Source: Candidatus Pelagibacter sp. IMCC9063
GTDB lineage: Bacteria > Pseudomonadota > Alphaproteobacteria > Pelagibacterales > Pelagibacteraceae
Reading direction: 5' to 3'
DNA: 64,000 nucleotides
Assembly (NCBI RefSeq): GCF_000195085.1
Contig: NC_015380.1
Coordinates: forward strand, 1-64,000
Under the pieces are notes generated by a model. That model saw only the letters and a program-made list of their open reading frames with translations. It searched no databases and was not told where the DNA came from. Below are positions 8,565 through 14,531 of this stretch, one piece after another (positions within the stretch are counted from its first letter, which is position 1; every line of letters begins with the position of its first letter). Made by a program: the position numbers and the translations under genes.

Positions 8565-9395
8565 ATGGACGCAAAATCAGTAAATTTGAGTAAGGAGTTT
8601 GTAGATAAGATTTCTCCCGGTTCAAAAAAATTAAAACTACCTATTAATGGTGTTAAAAAGATTATTGCAATTTCAAGTGCTAAAGGTGGCGTAGGAAAAT
8701 CCACCATCGCAGTTAATTTAGCTATTGCTTTAAAAAAATTAAATTACAAAGTTGGGATATTAGATGCGGATATTTATGGCCCTTCCCTTCCACAAATGCT
8801 TGGAATCTCTGACAAGCCAAAAAGCGAAGACGGGAAGAGTTTAATTCCCATTTCCAAATATGGTCTTCAATGCATGTCTATTGGATTCATGGTCGATCAA
8901 GATACGGCTATGATTTGGAGAGGACCCATGGTCATCAGCGCTATCAAAACTTTCACCACCAATGTTCTTTGGGATAATTTAGATTTTTTAGTTATTGATT
9001 TACCTCCTGGAACTGGAGATGCCTTGTTAACTTTTTCTCAAGAAATTCAAATTGATGGCGCAGTAGTAATTTCTACCCCTCAGGAAGTTGCACTATTAGA
9101 TGCAAACCGTGGAATTAAAATGTTTCAAAAAACTAACGTTAATATTTTAGGAATTATTGAAAATATGAGCAGTTTTACTTCGGATGATGGAAAAGAACAT
9201 TTTATTTTTGGTGAAAGTGGAGCACAAGAAATGTCAAAAAATTTAAATATTGATTTGCTTGGAACTATTCCTATTGAAATAGGCTTAAGAGAAGGTGCTG
9301 ATAAAGGTGAGCCTTATATGGAGTTTGTTAACGACAGCCTAACATCAAACAAAATACTTGAAATTGCCAAAAAGATTTCAGAAAAAATTAAATGA
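8565..9395 (+). CDS. mrp: Mrp/NBP35-family P-loop ATPase (iron-sulfur cluster carrier)
   Basis: Mrp/ApbC proteins carry or deliver Fe-S clusters using a deviant Walker P-loop. The motif [10 protein letters not shown] is at residues 38-47, followed by [15 protein letters not shown] and [13 protein letters not shown], all diagnostic of Mrp. At 276 residues it is shorter than the roughly 370-residue enterobacterial form because the N-terminal MIP18/DUF59 domain is absent. A CxxC cluster-binding pair usual near the C-terminus of Mrp proteins is not evident, which is worth noting. It is divergent from hflK and converges on thyX, overlapping its 3' end by 8 bases. Confidence 0.9.
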
Positions 9396-10335
9396 GCTTA
9401 TCTTTAAGCTCAAGAGTTTCCATTAATTCATTCCACTCTCTTTTTCCTAGACCAGATTCTTCGTAAGAAACTTGTTTTCCGCCAATCATAGATTTTACAA
9501 TTTTTAGTCCTTTTGAGGAAACGTGCGCTGCTCCTACTCTATAATCTAAAAATGCAGAGTGTGTGATGGGAACCCACTTTTTGACTGTCTCCAACATAGC
9601 TTCTGCATAAACTCTGATTTCATATTGGGCATGACTATCTGCTCTTAGAAATAAAAAATTTAACAGATTTAACAAGTCTGTTTTCCAGTACCACTGAGTA
9701 TATGAATTTAAAGTTAAGTTCATTCTTGCAAGCTCTCTTGCTAAACCAGATTTTCCTTCATCAATAATTGTTCCATCAAATCTTTCATTCAACATTTTTT
9801 CATAATTGTCGTACGTTCGTATAGAATCGTCCTTTAAAATTTTAAGAACTTCATCGGCCTGATCTCCTGTGATCAAATCACCTCTTCCTTGCCTATTGTT
9901 AGTCGCCTGTGCAGATAGTTGTTCTTTTTCAGGAATGTAAAATTCTTTATCTAGAATGGAATATCTTGCAGAATATTCATTAACATTTGCAGTTCTATGT
10001 CTAATCCATTGTCTTGCTATAAAAATTGGAAGTTTTACATGATATTTAATTTCACACATCTCAAAAGGTGTGCTGTGCCAATGTCTCATTAAATATTTAA
10101 TTAACCCTTCGTCAGTTGATACTTTTTTGGTTCCTTTGCCGTACGAAACTCTAGCTGACTGAACAATAGAACTATCATCACCCATATAATCTACCACTCT
10201 TACAAAACCATGATCTAATATAGGAATCGCATCATAAAGAATTTTTTCTAACTCTGGAGAGGTAACTCTTTTGGTTGGATATTCTTGGGCTTTTTGATCA
10301 GCTATTTCTTGATTTTGTTGCTCTGTTAATTTCAT
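9388..10335 (-). CDS. thyX: FAD-dependent thymidylate synthase
   Basis: ThyX makes dTMP from dUMP using methylenetetrahydrofolate with FAD and NADPH, replacing classical ThyA. The signature [14 protein letters not shown] lies at residues 112-125, preceded by [19 protein letters not shown], which fits the family closely. The 315 residues are normal for alphaproteobacteria, where an N-terminal extension is common. The 3' end overlaps the convergent mrp gene by 8 bases. The tmRNA gene starts about 50 bases upstream on the other strand, so the gap between them must serve two divergent promoters. Confidence 0.96.
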
Positions 10336-10348
10336 TTACGATTTGTCT

Positions 10349-10376
10349 TTGAATCAGTTTCAGAAAGTTTTATATT
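10349..10376 (+). promoter_or_regulatory. putative promoter of the tmRNA gene
   Basis: A TTGAAT box at 10349-10354 and a TATATT box at 10371-10376 are separated by 16 bases. This is close to the housekeeping sigma-factor consensus, and it lies about 8-20 bases before the inferred 5' end of the tmRNA. The match is by eye in AT-rich DNA, so chance is a real possibility. Confidence 0.4.
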
Positions 10377-10384
10377 ATTGATGT

Positions 10385-10645
10385 TGGTTTTCCAACTATA
10401 ACGATAAACGAAATTCGTAATAAACATTTTGGACCAGGGGGCGGTACCCTGCACCTCCACCATTTACAACTCATGGGGGTGAAATAGGCTCGACAGATGT
10501 CTAAAAGCTTTTCTTTCGTTCAGTATTGTTCCGCTGTGACGGGCTACATTTTAAATGCTAACGAAAGTTACGCTATTGCTGCTTAATTAACTTCGGTTAA
10601 TTAAAAAGCAGGGGTCCGGGGCACCTTGCAACAGAACGCCCCACT
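10385..10645 (+). ncRNA. ssrA: transfer-messenger RNA, circularly permuted two-piece type
   Basis: The 3' acceptor piece comes first. It has a T-arm with stem CAGGG/CCCTG around a GGCGGTA loop, then CACCTCC plus ACCA ending near 10470. A short intervening loop follows, and then the coding piece starts with GGGGGTG, which pairs with CACCTCC. A second long helix forms between GTCTAAAA near 10500 and TTTTGGAC at about 10428-10435. The tag reading frame runs GCT at 10557 to TAA at 10584-10586 and encodes ANESYAIAA after the charged alanine. The ...AIAA end is a ClpXP/ClpAP-type degradation signal. A pseudoknot-like GGGGC...GCCCC closes the coding piece near 10642. The exact 5' and 3' ends are estimates. 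Confidence 0.93.
10630..10645 (+). repeat. tmRNA 3'-end repeat, copy 1 (native, inside ssrA)
   Basis: AACAGAACGCCCCACT forms the end of the coding piece of ssrA. The same 16 bases recur exactly at 13445-13460, and the first 13 recur at 12313-12325. Integrating elements often target the 3' end of ssrA and leave such duplications, so this is read as the native attachment core. Confidence 0.7.
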
Positions 10646-10723
10646 CATTTGTTAATTTAGTTTGCGGCATCAACGTTATTCAAAAGATACAACCAAGTTG
10701 ATTGTAAGAACGAGGAACCAGGT

Positions 10724-11845
10724 TCAGGGTTTCTTTAACTTCAGAACTTCAAATAAATTTTTATCGGGTACACGAGGATAATTTTGATACTTTTTTGAGC
10801 TTTGTCTCAAATATGGTGTATTATAATCCCCCAACGCCCACCATGTAAGTCCACACTCATTACAAGCATCCATATATTTTACAATAGTATTTTTGACAAA
10901 ATCTGTTCGCAAATTTAAATCCACGCCACCTGTACCTTTTAGAAATCCAGTCATTCCAAATTCTGTAACGCTTACTGGAACTTTATATCGTTCACCATAT
11001 TTAATAACGCTTTTTAATGCCTTCCATCCATTTGAATATTCACTTTTATTAATTTTTTTCACAACAATTTTTGGATTGTTTTCAGACTCTGGCCCTGCAT
11101 TATTTGTTAAATAATAATGGAAACCATAAATAATTTTATCTCTATCCACTGGTTTACCCATAACACCTCTCGCAGTCCAATCTCTGGCAATTAGTGATTT
11201 ATTTATACCTTCTAGAATAATCCAACGATTTGGAGAAATTTCTCGGATAGCATCAATAGCTTCTAGTGATAATTTACGCCATTTTTTTTTACCTTTAGAT
11301 ATCTTGTGCCATTCAGGCTCATTCATTATAGTGAAGACAACCCGATCCATATCTTTAAATTCATTGGCAACAAAACGCCACCATTTTAAATATTCTTTTT
11401 GTAACTCTGGTGAGTCTTCTATACGTTTATATAATATTGCTTGTGGTCTACCTTTTACATCCCATCCATATTTTCCAGTTCCACCAACAGGTTTATATCC
11501 TTTAAAACTTATTCCAAAAGCGATATTAGGATACTTTTTTAATAATATTTCAATTTGTGTTCTAAGGTTCTTAATTCTAATATCAAAACCTGTTTTTTTA
11601 AACTTATCATTTGGAAAATCCTTATGTCCGCAAAGGATAATGTTTATATGTCGCCAACCATCATTAATTACTTGCTCATACTCTTCAATCTTAGCTTCTG
11701 GAATTGGACCAGTTTTACAACTTGACCATTCTCTGATTGAATTAATCCCAACATCTAAAAAGGCTTTTTTAGTTGTGTCTGCTTTTAAAGTTGAGAATGA
11801 TAAAAGAATTAATAACAAACTTAACTTTATAGTTTTATATTTCAT
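10724..11845 (-). CDS. secreted glycoside hydrolase, family 5-like (cellulase fold)
   Basis: This looks like an exported beta-glycosidase. The ATG at 11845 gives a clean signal peptide (MKYKTIKLSLLLILLSFS, cut near KA-DT); an in-frame ATG at 11863 would only add six residues. The TIM-barrel family 5 landmarks are present: TIMNEPEWH carries the acid/base glutamate after the conserved Asn, FHYY follows, and SVTEFGMTG carries the nucleophile glutamate. The substrate cannot be told. It is the only gene of the first segment between ssrA and the tmRNA-end repeat at 12313, has no operon partner, and is unusual for SAR11, which carries few polysaccharide hydrolases. I infer acquisition by insertion at ssrA. 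Confidence 0.8.
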   Translation of the reverse strand: MKYKTIKLSLLLILLSFSTLKADTTKKAFLDVGINSIREWSSCKTGPIPEAKIEEYEQVINDGWRHINIILCGHKDFPNDKFKKTGFDIRIKNLRTQIEILLKKYPNIAFGISFKGYKPVGGTGKYGWDVKGRPQAILYKRIEDSPELQKEYLKWWRFVANEFKDMDRVVFTIMNEPEWHKISKGKKKWRKLSLEAIDAIREISPNRWIILEGINKSLIARDWTARGVMGKPVDRDKIIYGFHYYLTNNAGPESENNPKIVVKKINKSEYSNGWKALKSVIKYGERYKVPVSVTEFGMTGFLKGTGGVDLNLRTDFVKNTIVKYMDACNECGLTWWALGDYNTPYLRQSSKKYQNYPRVPDKNLFEVLKLKKP

Positions 11846-12117
11846 GTTCCATGATCTTAGCATAAGCTTGTTTAGAGCTGGAACGGAATTTTAATCAAAG
11901 TTTTAAATTTTTAACAATTGCAAATGGCGTATAATAAATAATTTACTTTTCATTAAATTATCTTACCTAATTTATCTCTCTTTGCACAAGTCTTGTACAA
12001 GTTCACACAAATAAATTTGCATTGATTTCTAACATTAATTGAAGGGTTAAATAAGAAAGTTAGGATTGATAATGTTTTGAGACTATCAGAGATAGTTAGT
12101 AATGTGAATCTCCCGCC

Positions 12118-12156
12118 TTTTAAGTCCTTTGTGTCTACCAATTTCACCACGAGGGC
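12118..12156 (-). pseudogene. tRNA-Leu(UAA) 5' half, broken at the anticodon loop
   Basis: From 12156 the minus strand reads GCCCTCG, TG, the leucine-type D-arm GTGAAATTGGTAGACAC, the 5' anticodon stem AAAGGA and the loop CTTAAAA (anticodon UAA). A functional tRNA would continue with a strand pairing with AAGGA and end in CGAGGGC plus CCA. Instead it continues GGCGGGAGATTC and no CGAGGGC occurs in the next 250 bases. The match is therefore lost exactly at the end of the anticodon loop. This is most likely a recombination or integration remnant, not a working tRNA. Confidence 0.75.
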
Positions 12157-12301
12157 ACTGTGTTATTTTTATTGTTATTGTTAATATATTAATACATTAG
12201 AGTTTTAAAGTTTCAAAAATAATTAATTTATCTCTCTGTCCACCAGTCGTCATTCAGTCTTCCTATATTTTATAGGACAATAAGTTAGGTTTATTTATCT
12301 T

Positions 12302-12325
12302 GGACACCTGGTAACAGAACGCCCC
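12302..12325 (+). repeat. tmRNA 3'-end repeat, copy 2 (diverged)
   Basis: ACACCTGGTAACAGAACGCCCC resembles the end of the tmRNA coding piece at about 10621-10642 over some 22 bases. The last 13 bases are exact (12313-12325) and about four mismatches lie before them. No tRNA-like or tag sequence accompanies it. I read it as an attachment-site remnant between two insertions, possibly donated by a relative with a slightly different ssrA. Confidence 0.6.
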
Positions 12326-12464
12326 GTGTTAATTAAAACTGCTAATCCAAATCAAATACAAAAAAAAGGTACTACACGAAGTCTGAAGTCAATAATTTGA
12401 ACCGTTATAGTCCTATTTGCGCGTAGAACAATTCTAACTTTATTTTTTTTTATAAATTAAAAAA

Positions 12465-13292
12465 TTACTTTTTTGAGACCATTGCTATAAATTTTCTTGT
12501 ATTTTCTATACAATTATGTGCAGCACTCAATCTTTTATATACCAATCTAAAGTTAATTAAATCCTGTTTTTTTAATTCATTTAATGTTTCGTAAGTAGCG
12601 ATTGAACTATAAATTGTGTCTGAATTGCTTTGATTTAATTTTAAATAGACATCATCACATAAAATTAAACCATTTTCTTTTAAAATATGAAGTGAGTTAA
12701 TAATATCAATACAAACCACTGGGTATCCGTGAGCACCATCAATCCAAATTAAATCATATTTTTTTTTATAATTTAATAATTTTAATGAGTTAAGAGGATA
12801 AAAATTAATATTTTTATTTTTAGATAAAATAATATTCCTGTCTTGAATAAATTTATTAATATTATCTTTCCTATTATAAGAATTTACAAAGTCATCTTCA
12901 GTTTCAGATAAGTCAATAGTATCAATATTAGAATTAGGAAACAAATTTGATAATAGTAAAGAGTTAAAACCATCAAAGGTACCTATTTCTAATATGTCGG
13001 TAAATGATTTATTTTTACTTAAAGAAAGACTTGAAAAAATAATCTCGTGTTCTGAACTCATCTCACTATCTCTTAATTTTAAATCAAGGTTTTTTTTTAC
13101 AGATGTTAATTTTTTAATTCCTTCTTGTCTATTTAAACCAAAATGTTCAAATATTTTGTTTTGCTCTTCCTCGAAAAAATTTTGATTATATTTTTTGTAA
13201 CTAAAGTAATAGTTTAACTTATTTAATATTTTTTTTGGTATTTTGTGAGGTCTTGCTAAATTATTGAGTATTTTCATAAACAAGTTATTCAT
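12465..13292 (-). CDS. class I SAM-dependent methyltransferase (Methyltransf_24-like)
   Basis: A 275-residue protein with a SAM-binding Rossmann core. EIGTFDGFNSLLL is motif I, DTIDLSE follows, YDLIWIDGAHGYPVVCIDI is in the middle, and GLILCDDVY comes later, the pattern of the Methyltransf_24 family. The substrate is unknown; relatives are common in polysaccharide and glycolipid loci. The N-terminal roughly 80 residues are basic and unlike the core. It stands alone between the second and third tmRNA-end repeats and is very AT-rich, so I take it as cargo of a second insertion. An internal Met at residue 6 is an alternative start. Confidence 0.72.
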   Translation of the reverse strand: MNNLFMKILNNLARPHKIPKKILNKLNYYFSYKKYNQNFFEEEQNKIFEHFGLNRQEGIKKLTSVKKNLDLKLRDSEMSSEHEIIFSSLSLSKNKSFTDILEIGTFDGFNSLLLSNLFPNSNIDTIDLSETEDDFVNSYNRKDNINKFIQDRNIILSKNKNINFYPLNSLKLLNYKKKYDLIWIDGAHGYPVVCIDIINSLHILKENGLILCDDVYLKLNQSNSDTIYSSIATYETLNELKKQDLINFRLVYKRLSAAHNCIENTRKFIAMVSKK

Positions 13293-13444
13293 AAATTGAA
13301 TTTAACACGTTAAGTTTAACTAAAATATTATTATAAGACCAATACACAAAGTTGAAAGTCAAAAAATCATCAAAATGAGAAATCTACTATACGAAGTTTT
13401 TGAAAAAGTGTTTAATTATGTGTATAATCAATCAAGCGACGAGA

Positions 13445-13460
13445 AACAGAACGCCCCACT
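13445..13460 (+). repeat. tmRNA 3'-end repeat, copy 3
   Basis: AACAGAACGCCCCACT is identical over 16 bases to the end of ssrA at 10630-10645 and ends 6 bases before the dmlA stop codon. It marks the far boundary of the accessory patch, consistent with a target-site duplication left by integration at ssrA. Confidence 0.65.
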
Positions 13461-13466
13461 TAAAAT

Positions 13467-14531
13467 TTATAAATTTGCTAAAACTGAGTCAGCACACTGT
13501 ACTGTATTGCTGCTTCCCTTAAGGTCTTTAGTTCGAGACTCGTTGTTAGATAAGGTTTTCTCAATTGCTTTAACAATATTATCTGCAGCTTCTTTTTCTC
13601 CCAAATAATCTAACATCATTGCACCAGACCAAATTTGTCCTATTGGGTTAGCAATTCCTTTTCCTGCAATATCAGGGGCAGAACCGTGAACTGGCTCAAA
13701 CAGAGATGGAAATTTTTTCTCTGGATTGATATTTGCAGAGGCTGCAATCCCTATAGTTCCTGTGCAAGCTGGGCCAAGATCTGAAAGAATGTCTCCAAAT
13801 AAATTTGAAGCGACTACTACATCGAACCATTCTGGAGTTAATACAAATCTAGCTGCTAAAATATCAATATGAAATTCATCTGTTTTTACGTCGGGATATT
13901 TTGTTTTCATTTCTTTAAATCTTTCATCCCAAAAGGGCATGGTGATGGAAATACCATTTGATTTAGTTGCACTTGTAAGTTTTTTTCTCTTAGTGGTTTT
14001 CGCAAGTTCAAATGCATATTTCATAACTCTATCAATGCCTTGTGCTGACATAATAGTTTCTTGAATAGCAATTTCTCTATCCGTCCCTTTGTACATTCTA
14101 CCGCCTACAGAAGAATACTCACCTTCTGTATTTTCTCTGACAATAAGCATATCAATGTCCCCTGGTTTTTTGTTTGCTAGTGGACAAGGTACTCCCGGCA
14201 TTAATTTTACAGGTCTTAAATTGATGTACTGATCAAATTCCCTTCTGAACTTAAGTAAGGATCCCCATAAAGAAATGTGGTCTGGTAACTGATCTGGCAT
14301 TCCCACGGCTCCAAAAAATATAGCATCATGTTTCCCGATCTGATCTTTCCAATTGTCTGGTAGCATTTTTCCATGTTTCTCATGATAATCACACGAAGCA
14401 AAATCAAATTCATCAAAGTGAATTTTGAACTGGTGTTGCTCAGCTACTTTTTTTAAAATTCGAATTCCTTCAGGAGTAACTTCTTTTCCTATTCCATCTC
14501 CTGCAATAGATGCTATTTTGTATTCTTTCAT
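13467..14531 (-). CDS. dmlA: D-malate/tartrate dehydrogenase (decarboxylating)
   Basis: This 354-residue protein belongs to the isocitrate/isopropylmalate dehydrogenase family. The sequence matches the DmlA/TtuC branch: AGDGIGKEV at the N-terminus, then HISLWGSLLKFRREFDQYIN and NLRPVKL, IVRENTEGEYSS, LTSATKSNGISITMPFWDER, and NLFGDILSDLGPACTGTIG. It oxidises D-malate or tartrate to the keto acid with CO2 release, using NAD and a divalent metal. Those phrases and the low similarity to LeuB argue against 3-isopropylmalate dehydrogenase. It is followed by an accessory patch and preceded (30 bases) by a MazG-like gene on the same strand. Confidence 0.9.
   Translation of the reverse strand: MKEYKIASIAGDGIGKEVTPEGIRILKKVAEQHQFKIHFDEFDFASCDYHEKHGKMLPDNWKDQIGKHDAIFFGAVGMPDQLPDHISLWGSLLKFRREFDQYINLRPVKLMPGVPCPLANKKPGDIDMLIVRENTEGEYSSVGGRMYKGTDREIAIQETIMSAQGIDRVMKYAFELAKTTKRKKLTSATKSNGISITMPFWDERFKEMKTKYPDVKTDEFHIDILAARFVLTPEWFDVVVASNLFGDILSDLGPACTGTIGIAASANINPEKKFPSLFEPVHGSAPDIAGKGIANPIGQIWSGAMMLDYLGEKEAADNIVKAIEKTLSNNESRTKDLKGSSNTVQCADSVLANL

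Follow-up and report, generated by a model that had tools for sequence, protein, structure and literature searches.

Integrase-less, gene-sized units arrayed at the 3′ end of ssrA in Candidatus Pelagibacter sp. IMCC9063 and other SAR11 bacteria

The closest known case of insertions stacked at the tmRNA gene ssrA is that of Dehalococcoides, where vcr-GI and its relatives are described as tandem islands with copies of about 20 bp of the ssrA 3′ end, 11 of them downstream of ssrA in strain VS (PMC2764846, PMC3146451). According to the same two accounts the T-loop part of ssrA is the insertion point, many of these islands carry the serine recombinases DsiA/DsiB, and some are without an integration module and are proposed to move by accretion. 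Here we describe a comparable locus in Candidatus Pelagibacter sp. IMCC9063, a member of SAR11, the most abundant group of surface marine bacterioplankton (PMC10504331). The window analysed is the whole stretch of 64,000 nucleotides that opens contig NC_015380.1. Within it, copies of the ssrA 3′ end delimit two intervals between ssrA and dmlA (10643-12312 and 12326-13444; Table 1). We consider it probable that two integrase-less elements, moved in trans, were inserted here site-specifically at an accretion site anchored by ssrA, and that the locus is a short example of the arrays seen in SAR11. SAR11 genomes are streamlined. The arrays resemble the Dehalococcoides islands in their tandem units at ssrA, ssrA-derived repeats, streamlined host genome and variable cargo, with an integration module absent from some units there. 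They differ in that no integrase-bearing unit was seen, in a median unit length of 1.1 kb, in the use of the end of a permuted tmRNA gene as target and in a second site behind pnp.

Integrons are likewise arrays of short units at one platform, with a repeat after each unit and diverse cargo. The SAR11 arrays differ from them in that no integron integrase was found, no attC was recognised by eye, the platform is a tmRNA gene and most units read towards it. Elements that exploit the Xer system (integrative mobile elements exploiting Xer, IMEX, such as the CTX phage) use a recombinase of the host and insert at dif. A host recombinase is what we propose by analogy for SAR11, with the ends of ssrA and pnp and not dif as the sites. 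Att-flanked segments that lack an integrase and transfer genes are termed cis-mobilisable elements (CIMEs; used as in PMC3146451), a description that applies to both window inserts. As with CIMEs, such segments stand in tandem at the tmRNA gene in SAR11; the differences are that no parent element was detected and that termini are conserved across units with different cargo. Tycheposons, described as elements of 4-200 kbp with tRNA-gene borders and their own recombinase (PMC10872708), are also cargo islands next to RNA genes in streamlined ocean bacteria. Tycheposons carry tyrosine recombinases, unlike the window inserts, whose border gene is ssrA. Islander is described as requiring an integrase gene in each island (PMC4383910), so the SAR11 arrays would be missed by design. 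As no integrase lies inside the inserts, the locus works like the ssrA integrative islands without being a complete member of that class.

The 16-mer AACAGAACGCCCCACT ends ssrA at 10630-10645 and recurs exactly at 13445-13460. Its 13-base core AACAGAACGCCCC (10630-10642, within the ssrA 3′ end) is found once more at 12313-12325, inside TGGACACCTGGTAACAGAACGCCCC (12301-12325). A reading made from the letters of the window alone (the sequence-only reading) had reported the exact repeat at the ssrA end and beside the dmlA stop as well as a diverged internal copy, and we reproduced both. With up to three mismatches allowed there are 3 matches in the window, against a shuffle mean of 0.16, and none of 100 shuffles reached 3. 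The genome comprises 1,284,727 bases on one contig and contains the 13-mer four times: the three window copies and a fourth at G000:C1:305713-305725 (strand -), between the convergent 3′ ends of msrB and pnp. As a control, the reversed core pattern was searched in the whole 1.28-Mb genome and gave 0 occurrences.

The repeated sequence is the 3′ end of the permuted ssrA gene, not the CCA end, and the gene is complete beside the insertions. The Rfam alphaproteobacterial model has this sequence as the conserved end of the tmRNA gene. A stem-loop is possible in GGGGCACCTTGCAACAGAACGCCCC (10618-10642); judged by eye, the Rfam consensus retains the loop and has a different stem, and the model marks the stretch as unpaired. 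We considered the stem-loop as the recognised feature and rejected it, since folding gave no support. The ssrA end folds no better than shuffled sequence (z -0.39, with 69 of 200 shuffles as good), the four genome copies give z-scores of -0.39, -0.74, -1.84 and +0.07, and the distal copy at 13445-13460 forms no stem-loop (-1.3 kcal/mol). Therefore, the sequence and not the fold is taken as the site.

Table 1. Features of the ssrA-dmlA region of the window and the evidence for each
Feature	Position	Strand	Evidence and remarks
thyX, conserved on the ssrA side	9388..10335	-	TIGR02170; adjoins ssrA in 34/37 loci compared
ssrA, permuted two-piece alphaproteobacterial tmRNA, target gene	10344..10645	+	Rfam RF01849 222.6 bits, RF04321 127.6 bits; ARAGORN
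ssrA 3′ end, attB/attL-like site	10618..10642	+	Core 10630-10642; possible stem-loop GGGGC...GCCCC; only junction copy in empty sites G001, G014, G010
Putative insertion 1, 1670 nt: GH5 gene and tRNA-Leu fragment	10643..12312		Left end in terminus family L2, common to G112 and G283 (another genus), by left-end clustering
Secreted GH5-family (cellulase superfamily) protein, 379 aa, cargo	10724..11863	-	PF00150 E=1.9e-23; signal peptide by eye
GH5 gene 5′ leader and start	11840..11937	-	79.8% over 99 nt, E=2.7e-17, to right end of G045 cassette (genus g5)
tRNA-Leu(TAA) 5′ fragment	12118..12158	-	95% over 41 nt with an indel against own intact tRNA-Leu(TAA) near 1107469
Internal copy of ssrA end, TGGACACCTGGTAACAGAACGCCCC	12301..12325	+	Boundary between the two insertions
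Putative insertion 2, 1119 nt: methyltransferase cassette	12326..13444		G+C 23% against 28% for the window
Methyltransferase (Methyltransf_24), recurrent ssrA-array cargo	12465..13292	-	PF13578 E=2.2e-10
Distal exact copy AACAGAACGCCCCACT, attR-like site	13445..13460	+	Core ends 9 nt before dmlA stop codon; junction as in G001 empty site
dmlA (tartrate dehydrogenase), conserved far flank in this genus and g10	13467..14531	-	TIGR02089

Relatives show the same junction both empty and filled. Among the five other members of the genus, two (G003 and G005) are uninformative, no ssrA match having been obtained in them. In G001 the ssrA core is followed by 14 nt and then by aligned dmlA coding sequence, and G002, whose contig starts within ssrA, has an empty site as well. 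Two genomes of other genera have empty sites too: 6 nt separate the ssrA core from the aligned flank coding sequence (dmlA) in G014, and grxC lies 9 nt after the core in G010. Altogether 37 loci were compared. A thyX-anchored ssrA is present in 34 of them, with downstream copies in 24 and none in 10, and a conserved far flank was in reach in 27, three of which (G001, G014 and G010) are empty sites with both flanks and a gap of 6-14 nt. The distal core of the window ends just where the empty site has its sole copy. The filled counterpart of G010 is G046, where an insert of 1.2 kb closes with a core copy (2 mismatches) that lies 9 nt from grxC. Of the 21 loci that have both copies and a flank, five (G034, G008, G046, G082 and the window) have their last copy at a distance of 4-13 nt from the aligned flank. 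In G004, the closest relative compared, the DNA next to ssrA is 94.8% identical to that of the window and is followed by 4.2 kb of other genes. The gene is intact, its end is repeated at the far boundary and relatives have empty sites, the marks by which ssrA islands are recognised. The sequence-only reading had proposed insertion and had looked to relatives for a site with a single repeat copy and for other cargo at the same repeat; the four empty genomes, the G004 insert and the many arrays described below support it on both counts. By eye, the G004 insert (L044:2927-7130) encodes a glycosyltransferase, an epimerase, an aminotransferase and a membrane protein, a cluster of surface-sugar type.

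In many SAR11 genomes the ssrA end is repeated, up to eight times per array, and the copies separate gene-sized units. Prevalence was taken from a core search in 60 family genomes and a 23-mer search in 297. The exact 13-mer occurs in 54 of the 60 (reversed control, 1 hit), and by hand count 20 of the 60, our own included, have at least two same-strand copies close to ssrA, with up to 7 in 5.1 kb (G035). The exact 23-mer GGCACCTGGCAACAGAACGCCCC is present in 210 of the 297 (reversed control, 0) and, again by hand count, at least twice anywhere in the genome in 81 of these 210, some copies being on different contigs. Random scatter of the repeat is excluded by these controls and by the four copies in the window genome. 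The densest array, in a single-cell genome (L187), has 8 copies (≤2 mismatches) in 4.5 kb. In the wider class the exact 17-mer GGCACCTGGCAACAGAA, a pattern that diverged forms and even the ssrA of this genome escape, was found in 42 of 386 genomes, at least twice on one contig only in G008, itself SAR11; G502 has two copies on different contigs. Loci from single-amplified genomes (SAGs) were chosen by the left end named L0 below, and 20 fetched regions for several or remote copies; both sets are unfit for prevalence. In the unit listing one strand was read per locus, that with more core copies. For the terminus counts exact duplicates and units under 100 nt were dropped; the 99 units kept have a median length of 1077 nt (quartiles 548-1522).

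Moreover, the units have matched termini. Among 54 units, left ends fall into family L0 (11 units, 9 genomes), family L1 (8 units, 7 genomes), family L2 (the window and two others) and one pair within G007, and the middles of the same units yield two similar pairs only. Right end A is found in 29 of 30 L0 units against 6 of 69 others (Fisher p 5e-18), and right end B in 7 of 8 L1 units against 1 of 91 others (p 4e-9), p-values that are not strict because the units are related and not independent. The L0 motif is absent from unit interiors (0 of 95). With units of ≤400 nt left out (19 of 20 kept), only 2 of 171 L0 unit pairs share at least 60% of the interior, and 73 pairs share some shorter stretch. 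Exact matches to the L0 left-end pattern in the GTDB species collection come from 27 stretches, all titled Pelagibacteraceae. Clustering of right ends at E≤1e-4 was uninformative because a shared GGCACCTGGC arm links the sequences, and was replaced by motif classes from which the arm was removed for A and B; class C still contains part of it. Of eight right ends without the GGCACCTGGC arm (types D and E, assigned by eye), seven close their locus and one, in G035, does not.

Gene orientation was read from 52 units with listed open reading frames (ORFs). In 36 all genes point towards ssrA, with 33-241 nt before the first gene. Another 11 hold one gene pointing away from ssrA, 7-121 nt into the unit, and 10 of these have just 9-38 nt after the gene. 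The remainder comprises 2 units of mixed orientation and 3 without an ORF of 60 aa.

These observations suggest a model of how the arrays could grow, in which we infer a circular intermediate, an order of insertion, strand exchange inside the 13-base core and a route between cells. Each element would be a circular, non-autonomous unit in which the right end, the core AACAGAACGCCCC and the left end together form an attP-like site. The circle would recombine at the core with the ssrA 3′ end through a recombinase acting in trans. The new unit would then come to lie next to ssrA and push older units away, and ssrA would stay whole because the unit starts directly after the core. The last position of seven of the eight arm-less right ends fits older units being farther out.

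The ssrA end is also found behind pnp, in the window genome (region L005:6714-6726) and, with changed bases, in G004. In G051 a gene lies between two core copies behind pnp; beyond them come a second gene and, by eye, fabI, and near msrB there is a further core pair, also with cassette DNA between its copies. In regions L005, L098, L099 and L101 no tmRNA gene reaches the Rfam threshold, so the sequence, rather than tmRNA as such, seems to be the target, and judging from these loci the pnp 3′ region seems to be a second landing site. As a side observation, G082 carries additional core copies, with cargo of HNH type, at a third locus (L101) distinct from the ssrA and pnp sites. Locus L104 of G055, which contains mazG, is more likely a broken-off end of the ssrA array of that genome.

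Cargo is variable. A first set of 94 ORFs matched 42 Pfam families, none in more than 3 ORFs, and a further 55 ORFs matched 15 families; ORFs below 60 aa were left out of one set, and ORFs below 90 aa and intervals of at least 3 kb out of the other, as were SAG loci L196, L197, L201, L202 and L205 from the second, which were judged to duplicate genomes used. Represented are DUF805 membrane proteins, inverse autotransporters, methyltransferases, HNH and Mrr-type nucleases and a C5 DNA methylase, and some ORFs match the defence-candidate models PDC-S11, TmtA and pVip. In 15 of the 94 ORFs and 11 of the 55 (26/149) the N-terminal 40 residues include a leader peptide resembling MKKLLAIVVLGL. We also observed that such leaders precede differing mature parts, with two or three such genes in a row in some units (L061, L090-L097, L185-L211), and that one inverse-autotransporter gene pair occupies differing array positions in three genomes (L092, L094, L108).

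By their sequence both window inserts are foreign: the GH5 protein matches only its own genome among the 297 (E≤1e-10), the methyltransferase gene has cross-genus identity, the G+C of insertion 2 is low and the left end of insertion 1 is shared. For insertion 2, 12447-13347 is 92.0% identical over 901 nt to DNA in the array of G240 (genus g5), against 79.3% for the thyX-ssrA core DNA of the same two genomes and 86.1% for thyX-ssrA between the window and same-genus G001. The methyltransferase is matched in 15 of 297 family genomes, 9 of them other genomes at ≥43% identity, and in 4 of these 9 (G240, G283, G019 and G080, from three other genera) it lies within an ssrA array. For insertion 1, the stretch 10611-10697, which is partly ssrA and includes the left end, matches G283 with 90.9% identity over 88 nt.

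The sequence-only reading had named a secreted GH5-like enzyme, a broken tRNA-Leu, a lone methyltransferase and dmlA, and the profile matches in Table 1 bear these names out, the tRNA piece being about 41 nt of the 5′ part of tRNA-Leu(TAA). Its picture of two one-gene intervals holds in that each has one main gene (short ORFs of 60-200 aa are left unannotated), and needs revision in that the first looks composite: a cassette-type leader ends near 11937 and is followed by about 375 nt with the tRNA piece before the next repeat. That this piece is a copy of the genome's own tRNA-Leu was considered and rejected, as a 25-base pattern (≤3 mismatches) is found only at the fragment and an indel separates it from the intact gene. 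A short direct repeat, TAATTTATCTCTCT..., at 11968-11996 and 12222-12250, by eye flanks the tRNA-Leu fragment and is perhaps the trace of a separate rearrangement.

What could move such units? Neither insert contains a tyrosine recombinase, as the sequence-only reading had noted of integrases; the sole PF00589 (Phage_integrase) protein of the genome, of 306 aa and distantly similar to XerA/XerD, is encoded at 1013768, far from the window. PF00589 is present in 50 of the 60 family genomes, mostly as a single copy of about 310-325 aa. This usually single resident enzyme is our candidate for the trans-acting recombinase, an assignment that we put forward tentatively. By eye, its gene (L063:1126-2046, L114-L138) often stands beside ogt and glycosyltransferase genes. 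It is presumably the counterpart of the integrase gene included in hypervariable region 2 of HTCC1062, whose variable-region genes are described as containing a probable phage integrase (PMC2217521). An attI-like site next to the resident gene was sought and not supported, with only matches of 2-3 mismatches in 30 loci. At the arrays themselves, six SAR11 tyrosine recombinases used as tblastn queries had no match in 70 loci (E≤1e-3), and no PF00589 match lies within 100 kb of the listed ssrA on the same contig in the 60 genomes, many of them fragmented assemblies. No recombinase appears among the cargo Pfam families (25 of 42 shown in the first set, all 15 in the second; DsiB was not searched). 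An integrase-bearing parent was found neither near ssrA in the 60 genomes, where the tyrosine type was searched for, nor in viral contigs, which were searched with the exact 21-mer and the L0 and L1 terminus patterns. The sequence-only reading had offered insertion in trans or loss of the integrase; the negatives from the 70 loci and the 100-kb neighbourhoods favour the former and speak against repeated loss.

Such loss is the essence of a decayed-island explanation, in which successive integrase-bearing islands entered at ssrA, their integrases were deleted under streamlining and the remnants, as CIMEs, move rarely and in cis with active islands. It has a precedent in the 15 ssrA islands without an integration module described for Dehalococcoides (PMC3146451), and window insertion 1 does look rearranged. 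However, no integrase-bearing unit was seen, and leftovers would not be expected to look like units of 0.2-1 kb that have matched termini and, where + oriented, fit tightly around the gene; we regard this explanation as rather unlikely.

Equally, we doubt that the units are satellites moved in trans by the integrase of a pelagiphage or plasmid instead of by the resident recombinase. Some SAR11 genomes do carry additional phage-type integrases of 337-446 aa. The exact 21-mer CACCTGGCAACAGAACGCCCC is present in 8 viral contigs (L139-L146), but 7 of these have the upstream ssrA motif, and L145, which lacks it, has surroundings of the same kind; by eye these are T4-like phage contigs whose SAR11-like, ssrA-type gene ends in the motif, not attachment sites, and a phage origin was rejected. 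Moreover, the exact L0 and L1 terminus patterns have 0 matches in viral contigs and an L0/A junction is unmatched among phage records.

Homologous recombination between repeats after DNA uptake, with the ssrA end a mere conserved terminator or RNA element that seeds recombination, would account for a sequence conserved as the tmRNA gene end that also stands behind pnp. It leaves the matched left and right termini unexplained (the L0-A association above, with its related units), and repeats of 13-25 nt are short for this process, which makes it improbable. A true integron with attC sites and IntI, to which gene-sized arrayed units and the 11 of 52 with one outward gene, 10 of them with 9-38 nt behind that gene, might point, is very improbable indeed, since the arrays have no tyrosine recombinase, the genome's own recombinase scores 20.8 bits against a TIGR02249 cut-off of 265, all genes face ssrA in 36 of 52 units, comparison with the attC consensus by eye revealed no such site (an attC model was not run), and a 2007 study that sought integron signatures at SAR11 variable regions reports no attC sites (PMC2217521).

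Several observations weigh against site-specific accretion in trans, the reading that we prefer. Excision, circles and recombinase activity were not observed. The stem-loop is weak, as described above. In the other 16 of 21 array loci the last copy lies 264-5370 nt from the flank gene; the filled sites of G004, G026 and G054 have no right-hand copy (≤2 mismatches), and G021, G044, G062 and G013 have neither copies nor flank in about 18 kb. In G290 the methyltransferase is found about 2.9 kb past ssrA without an intervening repeat, and the methyltransferase regions of G144, G045, G188 and G246 contain no core in the 9-15 kb fetched. At either side the homology between the methyltransferase blocks of the window and G240 stops before the ends of the cassette, which means that gene and termini were not transferred there as one intact unit. 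The recombinase negatives cover the tyrosine type, serine recombinases not having been searched genome-wide. The resident recombinase was not found in 10 of 60 genomes, draft assemblies that include array-bearing G083, G085 and G007; as the genomes without a match also include G001, which is empty, and G004, which is filled, its presence does not cleanly track the arrays. Finally, no convincing core stands beside the recombinase gene in the 30 loci.

The family-wide arrays, the conserved termini and the second site behind pnp lay beyond the reach of the sequence-only reading. Among the literature matches listed no paper deals with ssrA cassette arrays in SAR11, and we do not claim their absence from print. 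With the landing site and the unit ends defined and one recombinase as candidate, gene gain in SAR11 becomes testable in vitro and in single-cell genomes, and the terminus sequences are probes with which the cassette pool could be harvested from ocean data. Possibly, and we would not call it probable, SAR11 practises integron-like exchange without integrons, with the ssrA end and its pnp twin as platform, circular gene-sized cassettes with matched termini circulating among SAR11 genera and the resident recombinase acting in trans. If so, a minimal genome would sample single genes, among them those for secreted proteins, methyltransferases and defence-type nucleases, at almost no upkeep.

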